From contig PGXB01000042.1 of assembly GCA_002838945.1 (NCBI GenBank), positions 1 through 32,050 on the forward strand: DNA of 32,050 nt. Reading direction: 5' to 3'. Position 1 is the stretch's first letter. Each line of letters begins with the position of its first letter. Source of the DNA: a candidate division Zixibacteria bacterium HGW-Zixibacteria-1 (GTDB lineage Bacteria; Zixibacteria; MSB-5A5; GN15; PGXB01). Positions 6,580 to 11,782 of this stretch are shown here, in pieces. A model generated the notes under the pieces. It was not told the DNA's origin and did no database searches. It worked only from the letters and a program-made list of their open reading frames with translations. Position numbers and translations under genes: made by a program.

Positions 6580-7518
6580 GTGCCAATCTTTAAACTGGTA
6601 ATGGATGCGGGCAAAGTTGAAACAGGCAGACTGATGCATGCAAAATTTTCGAGCCTAAAACTTGAAGAACACTTGGAAAATTGGCTGGAAAACAGCCCTT
6701 GGGCAATTGCCCAGGAAACATTGCTTATAATAGGCCGACAAACGACGGTTTCTGATGGAGCCTACCGCCGATTTCCGGATTTACTGGCTATTGATAAAGA
6801 CGGCTTCCTGACAATTATTGAACTTAAGAAGGGACGGACACCGCGTGAGGTTGTCGCGCAAATACTTGAGTATGCCTCCTGGGCAGAGAGACTTGATGAT
6901 GAGGATATTGCATCCATTGCAAGAGACTATTGGCAAAAAATCGAGGGTAATTCTGAAAAGAATTTGGCGCAAGCATTTATGGATGCATTTGAGTCAGACG
7001 CGCCAGCGACATTCAATCAGCGACAACGGCTTTTTATTGCTGCGGAAGAGATAACCGATGATGTTGCTGGTGTTTGCCGTTACTTGAGAACATCTTATGG
7101 TATGGATATTAGTTGTGTCAGTTTTACGCTGTATGAGACAGAGTCGGGCGAAATACTGATTGATTCAGAAAAGGTCGTGGGAATGGAAGATATCGAAGAC
7201 CCAGTAAATACTCAAATTCCAAGGTGGTCAGGTGACAAACCGGTAAGAGAAGTGGTCCATGATGCTGTTATGGAGTTTACTGAAGGCAAAATGGATAAGA
7301 TATTTGCGCCGAAGGATATTAAAGAACTTGTACTTAATAAATACCCTGAGTTTAAAAGTAGTACTCTTGGAGCGCAAATCATTGGTGATTGTGTAAACCA
7401 TGCATCCCGGCATCATTATCCCGGTGGTAAAGATTTCTATTGGTGGTTGGATAAGGGTAAATACAGACTATTTGATCCAACGCAAGACGTAGTTCCAAGT
7501 GCTTCAAGCAAGAAATAG
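6580..7518 (+). CDS. PD-(D/E)XK nuclease-like protein (NucS/DUF91-like) with C-terminal DUF7669-like domain
   Basis: The N-terminal half carries a restriction-endonuclease-fold signature: FPDLLAIDKDG (Asp67), the strand LTIIELKKG (Glu81, Lys83) and a following helix with QILEY (Gln94, Tyr98), the QxxxY motif of many PD-(D/E)XK nucleases. The acidic and lysine residues needed for metal-dependent DNA cleavage are therefore present. Residues about 222-300 form a separate small domain (PVREVV, then HASRHHYPGGKDFYWW and a final KYRLF) like the winged-helix-type domain I associate with DUF7669, often C-terminal in restriction-like proteins; that naming is from memory. The start is GTG at 6580, with GAGGAA 3 bases upstream of it. 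It sits just past tRNA-Ala, in a position typical of acquired genes. A defence or DNA-repair role is an inference. Confidence 0.78.
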   Translation: MPIFKLVMDAGKVETGRLMHAKFSSLKLEEHLENWLENSPWAIAQETLLIIGRQTTVSDGAYRRFPDLLAIDKDGFLTIIELKKGRTPREVVAQILEYASWAERLDDEDIASIARDYWQKIEGNSEKNLAQAFMDAFESDAPATFNQRQRLFIAAEEITDDVAGVCRYLRTSYGMDISCVSFTLYETESGEILIDSEKVVGMEDIEDPVNTQIPRWSGDKPVREVVHDAVMEFTEGKMDKIFAPKDIKELVLNKYPEFKSSTLGAQIIGDCVNHASRHHYPGGKDFYWWLDKGKYRLFDPTQDVVPSASSKK

Positions 7519-8420: not shown

Positions 8421-8466
8421 GCTGGAGTAGATATAAAATAAGCTTTTTTTTTAATAAGGAGAAGCC

Positions 8467-9120
8467 ATGGGAATTTTTAAGTTCGGAAACAAGACATACA
8501 CTGTGGACACGGAAGAGTTTCTGTCTGATTTCAACGAATGGGATGAAGATTTTGCAAGGGGGATGGCTCCTAAAGTCGGTATAATCAGTGGTTTGTCGGA
8601 AGATCATTGGAAAATCATTTTCTTTATTCGTGATATGTTCAAGAAAACCGGGAAATGCCCGCTGGTTTATGAAACCTGCCGGATGAATCGGCTTCATCTC
8701 GAAGAGCTTAAGAAGCTTTTTCCTGCGGGATATCTTCGTGGGGCATGCAAATTGACGGGAATCACCTATAAGGAAGGATACTTAGATCAAGCAGGGCTGG
8801 AGGATTTGGCGGAACGTGTAACTTCTCCGGCTCAGGAAAAGAGCTATGAAATCGACGGTCGGGGATTTCTTCTGAACTCATTCGATTGGGATGAAAGTTT
8901 CGCCAAATTGAAAGCTTACGAGATGAAAATGCCCAAGCTGTCGGAAAAACATTGGCATATTATTAACTTCCTTCGCAAAAGTTTTGAAAAGAACAATGTC
9001 GTGCCCACGGTTTATGATACTTGTGATGCAAATGGCATTGAATTGGATGAGCTTGAAAAGTTATTTCCCGACGGGTATCACCGGGGAGCTGTAAAAATCG
9101 CAGGACTCCGGGTCAGGTAA
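8467..9120 (+). CDS. Tandem double-domain DsrC/TusE-like sulfur-relay family protein
   Basis: Two DsrC/TusE-type domains lie head to tail (about residues 5-105 and 124-217). Both share the family features: F..W(D/E)E.FA, LSE.HW.II.F.R, then P.VY.TC and LFP.GY.RGA.K..G. DsrC-family proteins carry sulfur on C-terminal cysteines in sulfite reduction or tRNA thiolation; most have one domain of about 105-115 residues. Here Cys94 of repeat 1 (GACKLTG) matches the upstream conserved cysteine, but the penultimate cysteine position is Tyr105, and repeat 2 has Val209 in place of the first and ends before the second. Other cysteines are Cys64, Cys71 and Cys186; the VY(E/D)TC cysteine is in both repeats. 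AAGGAG upstream of the ATG supports the start. No dsrAB or tus genes are nearby, so the role is open. Confidence 0.82.
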   Translation: MGIFKFGNKTYTVDTEEFLSDFNEWDEDFARGMAPKVGIISGLSEDHWKIIFFIRDMFKKTGKCPLVYETCRMNRLHLEELKKLFPAGYLRGACKLTGITYKEGYLDQAGLEDLAERVTSPAQEKSYEIDGRGFLLNSFDWDESFAKLKAYEMKMPKLSEKHWHIINFLRKSFEKNNVVPTVYDTCDANGIELDELEKLFPDGYHRGAVKIAGLRVR

Positions 9121-9286: not shown

Positions 9287-9865
9287 TCACTCTGCTGATC
9301 CAATAAAAGCGCATGGAGGCGGCCCGCTTTTATATAGGTAATTTATAGTATGAATTATATCTAATAAGTTAATAAGGCCATCACAATTGACATCGCCATT
9401 TTGATATACTGAATCCGTCGACATTTCGCATTCTATAATGAATACTTGGGTATCCAAAAACCAGTTTCTCATGTCATTCCATTGACTATCCAATGGTGAT
9501 AATCCTATATAATCTTCATCCGACCATGCATTATTGGGCTCCCCTTGACGCCATGCAGTAAGTGACCATTCTTCATCTGTTATCCAATGCCATTGTCCTT
9601 CGGAGTCTTCATCGGTACCACCCAAAAATGTGATGTAAGGATATGCTAATTGGGCAAGAAAGTTATTTTCTTCTTGTGAATTTGCTGTTGCCAGATATCC
9701 CCCCAATGCGATGGCGGAGTCTCTGCATTGGTGCCAGGTTGTGTAAGGTGGTATTATTATTTTGTAATAATAATGCCCAGTAAGATTGAGATACACTTTT
9801 TCACTTGAGTGCACCAATGACACATGTAATAAAATTGCGATCAGAATTAGTACTTTGGTTTTCAT
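9287..9865 (-). CDS. Secreted C-type-lectin domain protein with dockerin-like repeat
   Basis: This is a small exported protein, probably carbohydrate- or surface-binding. A signal peptide (residues 1-20, core VLILIAILLHVSLVHS) precedes a C-type lectin fold (about 30-148). The lectin domain carries the calcium/sugar motif EPN at 109-111 in WRQGEPNN, WND at 129-131, and the usual paired cysteines Cys47 and Cys146. EPN is the mannose-type specificity motif in animal C-type lectins; applying it here is an inference. The C-terminus (about 157-182, GDVNCDGLINLLDIIHTINY) is one calcium-loop repeat of the dockerin type, where classical dockerins have two. The ATG has GGAGAT six bases upstream. It is the only minus-strand gene in the middle of the window and its stop abuts the inverted motifs at 9163-9286. 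Confidence 0.83.
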   Translation of the reverse strand: MKTKVLILIAILLHVSLVHSSEKVYLNLTGHYYYKIIIPPYTTWHQCRDSAIALGGYLATANSQEENNFLAQLAYPYITFLGGTDEDSEGQWHWITDEEWSLTAWRQGEPNNAWSDEDYIGLSPLDSQWNDMRNWFLDTQVFIIECEMSTDSVYQNGDVNCDGLINLLDIIHTINYLYKSGPPPCAFIGSAE

Positions 9866-10129
9866 ATGATCTCCTTTATGCCCTTGACAGATTAGACGGT
9901 ATCTACGGCTGTCCGACTAAGTTGAAATATAATATCATAAAGAATAATGTCAAGAGTAGAAAGACCATGATCCGCAAATGGTTAACGGGATGGATATGGC
10001 CGCCTTTATATATGTTTGTTTTTCATATATTCGCTTTTGTTAACCCAAATAACATTTTCCTGAAGATTCATCACTTTTTTAAGATTTCTGTTTCATTGAG
10101 AAGAGGAAAAACGTATTTTAGCGCTCATT

Positions 10130-10720
10130 ATGGCAAAATCGAAAAAACAATTGAAGGCGCTTGCGACGGTCATTTTCGACCTGTTTCAACCGGCCACTGA
10201 CAAGACTGTCCCGATTGAGGTATTTCCGGAGCCGGCCGGAACGGATTTAAAGACTGCGGTGACACTGCCGCCGGTATCGCTTCTGGACAGCATGTATGAC
10301 GATTTCAACCGGGAATATTTCGGGGGGAAGCTGCCCAAGGCGACGATTTCATATTCAGGGCGGATGCTGACGGCCGGATCATACACGCCGGGCCGGAATG
10401 AAATCAAAATCGGCCGGAAATATCATGAGATATTTCCGGAGGAGATTGCCGACACGCTCAAACATGAGATGATCCATGTCATAAATCAGAGCCATGACCG
10501 GCGGTTCAAGGCGATGGCGGACAAAATCGGGGCCTCGGTCAAGGCAAAGGCCCACCCGGCATTACGAGGTAATTGCAAATATATGTACATTTGCCCGGAA
10601 TGCGGGCGGGAGTATCCGCGGCGTAAACGGCTGCGGATGGCTTCATGCGGAATCTGCACCAAAGGCCGGCGTTATGACGAAAATTTCAAACTTCGGCTGG
10701 CTAAATCAAAAAAAGTTTAA
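10130..10720 (+). CDS. SprT-like zinc metalloprotease family protein
   Basis: Residues about 48-180 match the SprT/SPRTN family. A helix (LLDSMYDDFNREYFGGKLP) leads into the strand ISYSGRM, followed by the zinc motif HEMIH (His112, Glu113, His116) and a third histidine at 122 (SHDRRF). A C-terminal zinc ribbon has Cys155, Cys158, Cys173 and Cys176. Eukaryotic members cut DNA-protein crosslinks; the bacterial role is poorly known. The N-terminal 45 residues are lysine-rich and then low-complexity. No strong ribosome site precedes the ATG: AGAGGA is about 24 bases upstream, so the start is only moderately sure. It precedes the rplM operon, which has its own promoter. Confidence 0.82.
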   Translation: MAKSKKQLKALATVIFDLFQPATDKTVPIEVFPEPAGTDLKTAVTLPPVSLLDSMYDDFNREYFGGKLPKATISYSGRMLTAGSYTPGRNEIKIGRKYHEIFPEEIADTLKHEMIHVINQSHDRRFKAMADKIGASVKAKAHPALRGNCKYMYICPECGREYPRRKRLRMASCGICTKGRRYDENFKLRLAKSKKV

Positions 10721-10764
10721 TCGACGGGAACAACGGGCCGTATAAAGCATTAATAACCGAAAGA

Positions 10765-10810
10765 ACGGCAATATTTTGCCGTAAAACATAAATAGTCGGG
10801 AAAATTTTCC
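10765..10810. other. Hairpin and palindrome between sprT-like gene and rplM
   Basis: ACGGCAA (10765-10771) and TTGCCGT (10776-10782) form a perfect 7-bp stem with loop TATT. Then GGAAAATTTTCC (10799-10810) is a perfect 12-base palindrome followed by GATTTTG. They lie between the sprT-like stop and the rplM promoter; termination of the upstream gene is the simplest reading, but the T-run is poor. Confidence 0.4.
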
Positions 10811-10850
10811 GATTTTGTGGTTCAAGGCAACAAAAGAGCCTTAAAAAGAC

Positions 10851-10878
10851 TTGACAGTAGAATGATATTTGCTATATT
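10851..10878 (+). promoter_or_regulatory. Promoter of the rplM-frr translation operon
   Basis: A perfect -35 TTGACA (10851-10856) and -10 TATATT (10873-10878) are spaced by 16 bases. Transcription would begin near 10885, leaving a leader of about 50 bases before the rplM ATG. Confidence 0.82.
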
Positions 10879-10933
10879 CTATGGCTCTGTTAGTATTTGG
10901 AATTTGGATTAACCGGTTTTGTCCGGGGGAAAG

Positions 10934-11371
10934 ATGAAGACATATATACCGAAGGTTGAAGAATTAGAAAAGCAGAAAAAGTGGCACCTGATCGACCTTG
11001 ATGGTCTCACACTGGGCCGGGCCGCGATTGAAATCGCGAATATTCTGCGTGGAAAAAACAAACCGATTTTTACACCTCATTTGGATACGGGCGATTTTGT
11101 TATTGCTGTCAATGCTTCAAAGGTGGTGGTTACCGGGGGCAAGGATGAGAAGATGTCCTATTTCCGGTATACCGGTTATCCGGGCGGTTTGAGAGAGACA
11201 TCTTACAAGAAGATGAAGGTCAAAGACCCATCGCAGATTGTGATTCATGCGGTGAAAGGGATGATTCCGAAGAACAAACTGGGCCGCAAGGTCATCAAGA
11301 AGCTGCATGTCTATGCCGACGAGAATCACCCGCACCAGGCTCAGAAACCAGAAGTTTTGAAATTATCTTAA
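10934..11371 (+). CDS. rplM: 50S ribosomal protein L13 (uL13)
   Basis: This is a large-subunit ribosomal protein that binds 23S rRNA early in assembly. Family sequence is clear throughout: WHLIDLDGLTLGRAA near the N-terminus, then a central GDFVIAVNASKVVVTGGK segment, and near the end GMIPKNKLGRKVIKKLHVY. I place the start at the ATG at 10934 (MKTYIPK, 145 aa) because GGGGGA lies directly upstream; a TTG at 10919 would add five residues but lacks a ribosome site. It is the first gene of the operon, and rpsI follows after 18 bases, the usual L13-S9 pairing. Confidence 0.97.
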   Translation: MKTYIPKVEELEKQKKWHLIDLDGLTLGRAAIEIANILRGKNKPIFTPHLDTGDFVIAVNASKVVVTGGKDEKMSYFRYTGYPGGLRETSYKKMKVKDPSQIVIHAVKGMIPKNKLGRKVIKKLHVYADENHPHQAQKPEVLKLS

Positions 11372-11389
11372 TCTTGATAGAGATTGTAA

Positions 11390-11782
11390 ATGAGCGAAAT
11401 TATTTTTTCTGCTACGGGAAGACGGAAAGAGGCTACCGCCAGAGTGACCATGAGGGTCGGCGGCGGCGTACTGACGATCAACAATAAGGCACCCAGGGAA
11501 TACCTGAAGCGCGGCGTTCTGGTTGACATTATCAACCAGCCGATCAACGAGACCGGAACCAGCGGCAAGCTCGACATCAGTTGTCGTGTCCTCGGCGGCG
11601 GCTTGACCGGTCAGGCCGGCGCCCTTCGTCTGGCTATCGCGCGCGCCCTGTCCAAGCTTGATCCCGATCTTCGTCCGGCTCTGCGTCGCAAGGGTTACCT
11701 GACCCGTGATGCCAGGATTGTCGAGAGGAAGAAGTACGGTCAGCCCAAAGCCCGTAAGCGCTTCCAGTACTCGAAACGATAG
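11390..11782 (+). CDS. rpsI: 30S ribosomal protein S9 (uS9)
   Basis: This small-subunit protein reaches the P-site tRNA with its C-terminal tail. The N-terminal ATGRRKEATARV, the glycine-rich GGGLTGQAGALRLAIARAL and the closing KARKRFQYSKR (final Lys-Arg) are diagnostic. The 130-aa length is standard. The ribosome site is weak (TAGAGA about 9 bases before the ATG), so translation may be coupled to rplM 18 bases upstream. The 3' half has sharper codon bias than its neighbours, as expected for a highly expressed gene. Confidence 0.97.
   Translation: MSEIIFSATGRRKEATARVTMRVGGGVLTINNKAPREYLKRGVLVDIINQPINETGTSGKLDISCRVLGGGLTGQAGALRLAIARALSKLDPDLRPALRRKGYLTRDARIVERKKYGQPKARKRFQYSKR

Follow-up and report, generated by a model that had tools for sequence, protein, structure and literature searches.

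The window, by which we mean the whole 32,050-nucleotide stretch of DNA analysed (contig C42 of a 3.8 Mb genome from Zixibacteria, an uncultured group of sulfur-respiring bacteria), encodes a 217-residue protein in which two DsrC-type domains are joined in a single chain. This tandem DsrC belongs to a widespread and apparently undescribed family, part of which may already be in print. The first repeat retains the CysB cysteine of DsrC, and we tentatively propose that through it the protein is a cytoplasmic thiol partner for DsrK, Hdr or hydrogenase modules. We hold this proposal to be quite possible, though short of probable, and in it we infer the chemistry, the docking role and the partner of the solitary window copy; observed directly are the domain architecture, the residues, their conservation, the distribution of the family and the linkage of its genes in relatives. 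The nearest named relatives are Candidatus Zixiibacteriota MAGs.

The two-domain character, first noticed in a sequence-only reading of the DNA, is borne out by profile and structure comparisons. The whole protein matches Pfam DsrC (PF04358) with an E value of 8.5e-41, and the halves alone match it with values of 2.6e-19 and 2e-20 (70.1 and 73.7 bits; cut-off of 24.9); each half separately also passes the cut-off of NCBIfam dsrC_tusE_dsvC. An AlphaFold model built from 70 relatives (mean pLDDT of 87.2, pTM of 0.80) shows two folded domains joined by a linker of low confidence, and both halves superpose on solved DsrC structures, including 3or1_C and 2v4j_C (VIA Z of 16.7–17.1). In the alignment to Desulfovibrio DsrC (2v4j_C) Cys94 falls on CysB and Tyr105, 11 residues further on, lies at the CysA place. 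The C-terminal end of repeat 2 is FPDGYHRGAVKIAGLRVR, with Val209 at the CysB place and no arm. The sequence-only reading had named these residues correctly, together with Cys71 and Cys186 in the YxTC motifs, and had rightly described repeat 2 as lacking the C-terminal arm, the protein ending after the CysB loop. The features are collected in Table 1.

Table 1. Positions in the window of the tandem DsrC gene and of the features of its product
Feature	Positions	Strand	Basis
AAGGAG, Shine-Dalgarno-like	8456..8461	+	Seen directly in the sequence; 5 bases ahead of the ATG
Tandem (two-domain) DsrC-family gene, 217 aa	8467..9120	+	Two PF04358 stretches; ATG start
Repeat 1, a DsrC domain that has CysB (Cys94) but no CysA (Tyr105)	8476..8778	+	Profile, alignment and structure match
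Cys64 (CP motif)	8656..8658	+	Cys in 60/70 aligned family members
Cys71 (YETC)	8677..8679	+	Cys in 63/70 family members
Cys94, CysB equivalent	8746..8748	+	Cys in 70/70 aligned members
Linker, residues ~104–123	8776..8835	+	Low model confidence, poor conservation
Repeat 2, a DsrC domain without the C-terminal arm, stopping just behind the CysB loop	8836..9117	+	Profile and structure match
Cys186 (YDTC)	9022..9024	+	Cys in 70/70 aligned members
Val209 in the CysB position	9091..9093	+	Cys there only in 8 clade-B members of 70

The window copy stands alone, with no sulfur or redox gene linked to it; its neighbours, named by eye, comprise a membrane-protein gene, a lectin-like gene on the opposite strand and, farther off, ribosomal genes. 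The product of a gene at 6580–7518 (+) contains DUF7669, weakly matches an HSDR_N-like nuclease and is unrelated to the tandem DsrC. The ratio dN/dS between the window gene and its nearest relative, L014, is 0.07 (proteins 87% identical), which, together with the recurrence of the architecture in 72 named loci, places the tandem form beyond chance.

These 72 loci, all from genomes titled as MAGs, were returned when 84,980 species genomes were scanned, a search for two-domain DsrC proteins that the sequence-only reading had proposed. They are distributed over Zixibacteria, Desulfobacterota, Acidobacteriota, Ignavibacteriota, Calditrichota, Chloroflexota, Myxococcota, Gemmatimonadota, Planctomycetota and other phyla. 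A two-domain gene is present in 34 of 132 Zixibacteria genomes (in one, G067, the match is cut at a contig end), and on these counts we rejected a fused form confined to the window's own genome. Two genomes that were reached twice, with the same places and scores (G066/G152 and G111/G153), were each counted once. The gene dsrA was found whole or in part in 53 of the 132 genomes, several of these being partial and two further weak matches (G107 and G126, of 55) being left uncounted. It occurs in 29 of the 34 genomes with a two-domain gene against 24 of the 98 others (Fisher p = 4.6e-10, related genomes not being independent). A single-domain DsrC with both cysteines was present in all 20 further host genomes that were checked.

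Conservation was assessed in a 70-row alignment of 65 of the 72 named loci and the five tandem genes of the window's own genome; L032, L036, L047, L049, L053, L058 and L084 were left out as near-copies, partial, interrupted or belonging to a longer protein of repeats. All 70 proteins have Cys94 and Cys186 and none has CysA; column 209 holds Val in 53 and Cys in eight. Conservation is strongest in the CysB loop (residues 85–98; mean top-residue frequency of 0.87) and in its Cys-less counterpart in repeat 2 (residues 200–213; 0.91), compared with 0.60 overall. The sequence-only reading had supposed an unusual chemistry, and this is upheld as far as the loss of CysA chemistry is concerned but not for the VYxTC cysteines: the column of Cys71 and Cys186 is Cys in 20 and Ser in seven of 27 sampled canonical DsrC sequences, so that these residues are not special to the fused form. 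They were rejected as evidence of new chemistry, the strongest conservation lying in the CysB loops instead. Net charge was tried as a discriminator and discarded (median of −3).

The tandem proteins form two sister clades, A (with the window protein) and B. In a single-repeat tree, which has few columns (108) for its 113 rows, the repeats lie apart from the single-domain proteins (SH-aLRT of 100), the exception being L145, a short single-domain fragment placed among the repeats; repeat 2 of both clades is joined (SH-aLRT of 89). Because the tree splits the repeats from the single-domain proteins and unites repeat 2 of both clades, one duplication would be the simplest reading of the origin of the family. 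A 365-residue relative that seemingly has more than two DsrC repeats was observed in L058 and at G038:C18:21400-22395.

A PF04358 search of the window's own genome gave 12 domain matches. The genome encodes one canonical 105-residue DsrC with both cysteines and five two-domain genes (on C1, C42 and C46 and twice on C13), in agreement with the earlier suggestion that single- and two-domain forms coexist; there is also a 102-residue single-domain DsrC-like gene on C66. A look for dsrAB, tus or hdr genes elsewhere in the genome, likewise suggested earlier, turned up dsrA (G000:C6:94546-95706) and a dsr operon in which the canonical dsrC sits with dsrA, a DsrL-like oxidoreductase, an RsbRD_N protein and DsrMKJOP-like genes (the DsrL and DsrMKJOP assignments were made by eye on translated sequences). 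The five tandem paralogs are scattered over the 70-protein tree, from which they are judged to be old. In the C66 gene (L013 12349-12654, −) the repeats of a close paralog have recombined into one domain, with loss of CysB as well. Its residues 1–72 have 66 identities in 72 with repeat 1 of the window protein and the remainder has 27 in 32 with repeat 2, and the gene is flanked by homologous DNA on both sides. Contig C10 (L218 2939-3121, +) carries the repeat 2 remnant of a further tandem gene, 63% identical to the window protein and without a start region. Contig C66 ends in the same 96 bases with which the window begins (positions 1–96, 100% identity), the two contigs sharing an assembly break.

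Gene neighbourhoods were compared within 6 kb for 76 tandem loci and 39 random stretches from four host genomes, one of 40 control stretches (L159) having been dropped for its closeness (about 2 kb) to two-domain genes. Several of the 76 loci are near-copies, which are not independent and inflate the locus counts. Hydrogenase-type genes are found at 18 of the 76 loci against one of the 39 controls (p = 0.003) and Hdr/DsrMK-type genes at 17 against none (p = 0.0006). Sulfurtransferase neighbours are not enriched within the same distance (8/76 versus 2/39, p = 0.49), and a sulfurtransferase neighbourhood was rejected as a general rule. At least one of the tested families is present at 38 of the tandem loci and three of the controls; the other 38 tandem loci have none, which, like the solitary position of the window copy, counts against the thiol-partner proposal.

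Some individual loci are informative. The C1 copy of the window's own genome precedes a sulfhydrogenase-like operon that includes Hyp genes, an order that is kept in L035. The window subfamily (seven rows of the protein tree, SH-aLRT of 85) includes L018, where a copy lies between aprA and HdrA-type and qmoC genes, and L015, where three tandem copies lie downstream of an Mvh/Vhu-like hydrogenase. In two Chloroflexi genomes (L061 and L063) the tandem gene comes first and is followed by RsbRD_N-dsrM-dsrK-J-O-P (J, O and P named by eye), and in L038 it stands beside an Hmc-type complex. The tandem gene adjoins a NifS-SelD fusion gene in the C13 locus of the window's own genome and in L026. In L011 the fusion gene (9324-11525, −; about 732 residues) lies between two tandem DsrC genes, with a Sir2-type gene there too. 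A SelD separate from the fusion is encoded in the window's own genome; it has a single in-frame TGA (G000:C13:33392-34312), which probably specifies selenocysteine.

In an Acidobacteria MAG (L055 742-2610, +) a single 622-residue ORF comprises a cysteine desulfurase (TIGR01977, E value of 4.3e-124) followed by a tandem DsrC; it lies upstream of a PhsA-like enzyme and dsrA, in surroundings that also hold an Rrf2 regulator and TtrB/PhsA-like genes. Two Chloroflexi genomes (G132 and G133) encode a DsrK/HmcF-like iron–sulfur protein with a C-terminal DsrC domain whose loop is without cysteines (L220 2405-4057, + and L221 1861-3513, +), the gene having a DsrM-like gene on one side and another DsrC-like gene on the other; DsrC-type domains therefore do attach to CCG enzymes. 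A rhodanese-rubrerythrin gene accompanies the tandem copies of Desulfobulbus. A conserved 69-residue protein is encoded directly after the tandem gene in the Desulfobulbus loci (L072 6767-6976, + and homologs); its identification as DsrE-like was rejected, as it has no Pfam or NCBIfam match.

DsrC couples sulfite reduction to membrane energy conservation through a disulfide or trisulfide of two cysteines on one arm. DsrAB makes the DsrC trisulfide and DsrMK(JOP) reduces it (PMC10504309). In A. vinosum DsrC sulfur binding is restricted to CysA, CysB being irrelevant to binding, and CysB, with few exceptions, is found only where DsrAB is (PMC3397948). Since CysA carries the sulfur used by DsrAB and is absent here, the window protein, as judged from its sequence, cannot be a co-substrate of DsrAB as DsrC is. 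In the mechanism that we propose, a DsrC domain would have been duplicated long ago and the flexible C-terminal arm, and CysA with it, would have gone from both copies, the first retaining CysB and the second becoming Cys-less in the CysB loop. The thiol of Cys94, provided as the second thiol, might take up a persulfide, or might join in a mixed disulfide or trisulfide whose other member could be CysA of the canonical DsrC. The restriction of sulfur to CysA in A. vinosum weakens the persulfide role for a CysB-only protein (PMC3397948). The adduct on Cys94 could then be reduced or oxidized by cysteine-rich (CCG) enzymes of the DsrK/HdrB-D type or by hydrogenase-linked Hdr modules, to which the conserved Cys-less loop of repeat 2 would dock. 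Separate paralogs may serve separate modules: sulfhydrogenase-like, Mvh-like, Apr-Qmo, DsrMKJOP and NifS-SelD.

Clade B comprises eight of the 70 tandem proteins (SH-aLRT of 100) and has CysB in both repeats. Ten of the 12 distinct clade-B genomes examined also encode a TusE-type single-domain protein, and in eight of these ten its gene and the tandem gene share a contig, at a spacing of up to about 5 kb, with dsrM and dsrK. The order is TusE-type gene, dsrM, dsrK, tandem gene in seven of the eight loci (with dsrJOP between in L083), and L080 is divergent. In all 12 TusE-type loci read (one match, G096, lies outside them) dsrM and dsrK follow and CysA is present, with Tyr (11) or Phe (one) in place of CysB. 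Among the Zixibacteria genomes six have both clade B and the TusE-type protein, three the TusE-type protein alone, one clade B alone and 122 neither (p = 8.8e-8); the single genome with clade B alone is 74% complete. A MerR-like regulator gene (PF12728/PF00376 in L079) was observed upstream of the TusE-type gene in several clade-B loci (L079–L083). In L080 and L083 a second DsrK-like gene has Macro-domain-like genes nearby.

This arrangement raises the possibility of a 'split DsrC', in which the two cysteines of a 'bacterial heterodisulfide' would be carried by two proteins (CysA by the TusE-type protein and CysB by the clade-B tandem protein), dsrMK acting on an intermolecular disulfide or trisulfide, and clade A would be a CysB half that pairs in trans with the canonical DsrC. 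We consider this picture as a whole unlikely. No TusE-type protein was found in the window's own genome, so that a CysA partner of the window protein could only be the canonical DsrC or another protein.

A thiol function has to be weighed against a role as a non-catalytic regulator or scaffold in the 'RspA' sense, in which a pseudo-dimer of two HTH-like DsrC domains would bind DNA or partner enzymes and tune hydrogenase, hdr and dsr expression by sulfur status. DsrC domains do include an HTH-like part, several copies stand on their own, come first or diverge beside the operons (L064 and L067), and PMC4411801 restates an older proposal that rdsr expression is under the control of DsrC. There is a weak similarity to LexA in sequence (Pfam LexA_DNA_bind, E value of 0.012, below the cut-off) and in fold (Foldseek E value of 0.3; LexA chains with Z of 3.5–3.6), and HTH likeness to TetR, sigma factors and LexA in the structure comparison is weak (Z of at most 5.5). 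The recognition helices, however, show no special conservation (top-residue frequencies of 0.53 and 0.61 versus 0.60 overall) and that of repeat 2 is acidic (mean net charge of −2.5), an argument against a sensor that binds DNA; it is the CysB loop that forms the conserved surface. The fusion to a cysteine desulfurase in L055 would also be ill suited to a DNA regulator, and we judge this role to be somewhat unlikely.

The same fusion would suit a carrier of sulfur or selenium akin to TusE, charged by cysteine desulfurases or rhodaneses and passing persulfide to biosynthesis (SelD, metal-centre maturation) and not to respiration. The rhodanese-rubrerythrin gene of Desulfobulbus and the NifS-SelD fusion gene beside the tandem gene in C13 and L026 are in keeping with such a carrier, as is the presence of the fusion and a tandem gene on one contig, no more than about 3 kb apart, in G000, G087, G079 and G083. 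TusE, however, works through CysA, which the tandem protein is missing, and sulfurtransferase neighbours are not enriched. A selD match is found in 129 of the 132 Zixibacteria genomes, so that its co-occurrence with the tandem gene tells nothing, and selenium was rejected as a common theme; by our reading the SelD fusion and the tandem gene are also apart in five of the nine genomes that have both. We regard the carrier as quite unlikely. That the window gene is a degenerating paralog without a function of its own is very improbable: the recombinant copy on C66 and the remnant on C10 show the kind of decay that this would involve, but the low dN/dS and the residues that are invariant across phyla oppose it. 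The role as a CysB thiol partner is the reading that we carry forward.

No recognisable description of a tandem DsrC, a CysB-only DsrC or a split pair was found in the open literature searched, subscription papers lying mostly outside it. If the thiol-partner reading is true, sulfur-respiring bacteria couple electrons from H2 and sulfur through additional protein-bound thiols. The CysA-only and CysB-only proteins and the DsrK-DsrC and desulfurase-DsrC fusions are natural experiments for how CCG enzymes read DsrC. Annotation that scores any PF04358 match as dsrC or tusE will mis-score genomes with tandem proteins.

Each domain of the window protein lies within the DsrC/TusE superfamily (PF04358), above the curated cut-off. 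With DsrC (PF04358, TIGR03342) the tandem protein shares the fold and sequence family of each repeat, the CysB loop FPxGxxxGACK and co-occurrence with dsrAB and dsrMKJOP; it differs in having two domains per chain, no CysA or C-terminal arm, and GY for GP in the loop. DsrC proper has a penultimate CysA together with CysB in an organism that encodes dsrAB. The organism here does so, as dsrA and a dsr operon are present, but the protein falls outside DsrC proper, with CysB in repeat 1 only and CysA in neither repeat. With TusE of the Escherichia coli sulfur relay it shares the superfamily, and some tandem relatives are beside or fused to cysteine desulfurases. TusE, however, keeps CysA, usually without CysB, and the window protein is the reverse; without CysA, and with 62.2 bits against the NF008562 cut-off of 191, it is not a TusE. 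Venceslau and colleagues reportedly defined in 2014 an RspA group of DsrC-like proteins that have lost one or both C-terminal cysteines and occur in several copies per genome; we know of no tandem architecture in that group. HdrDE of methanogens acts with two thiols, CoM-SH and CoB-SH, and is a working analogy for clade B, with two separate thiols beside a reductase of the DsrK/HdrD type; in clade B, unlike HdrDE, both putative thiols would be on proteins.
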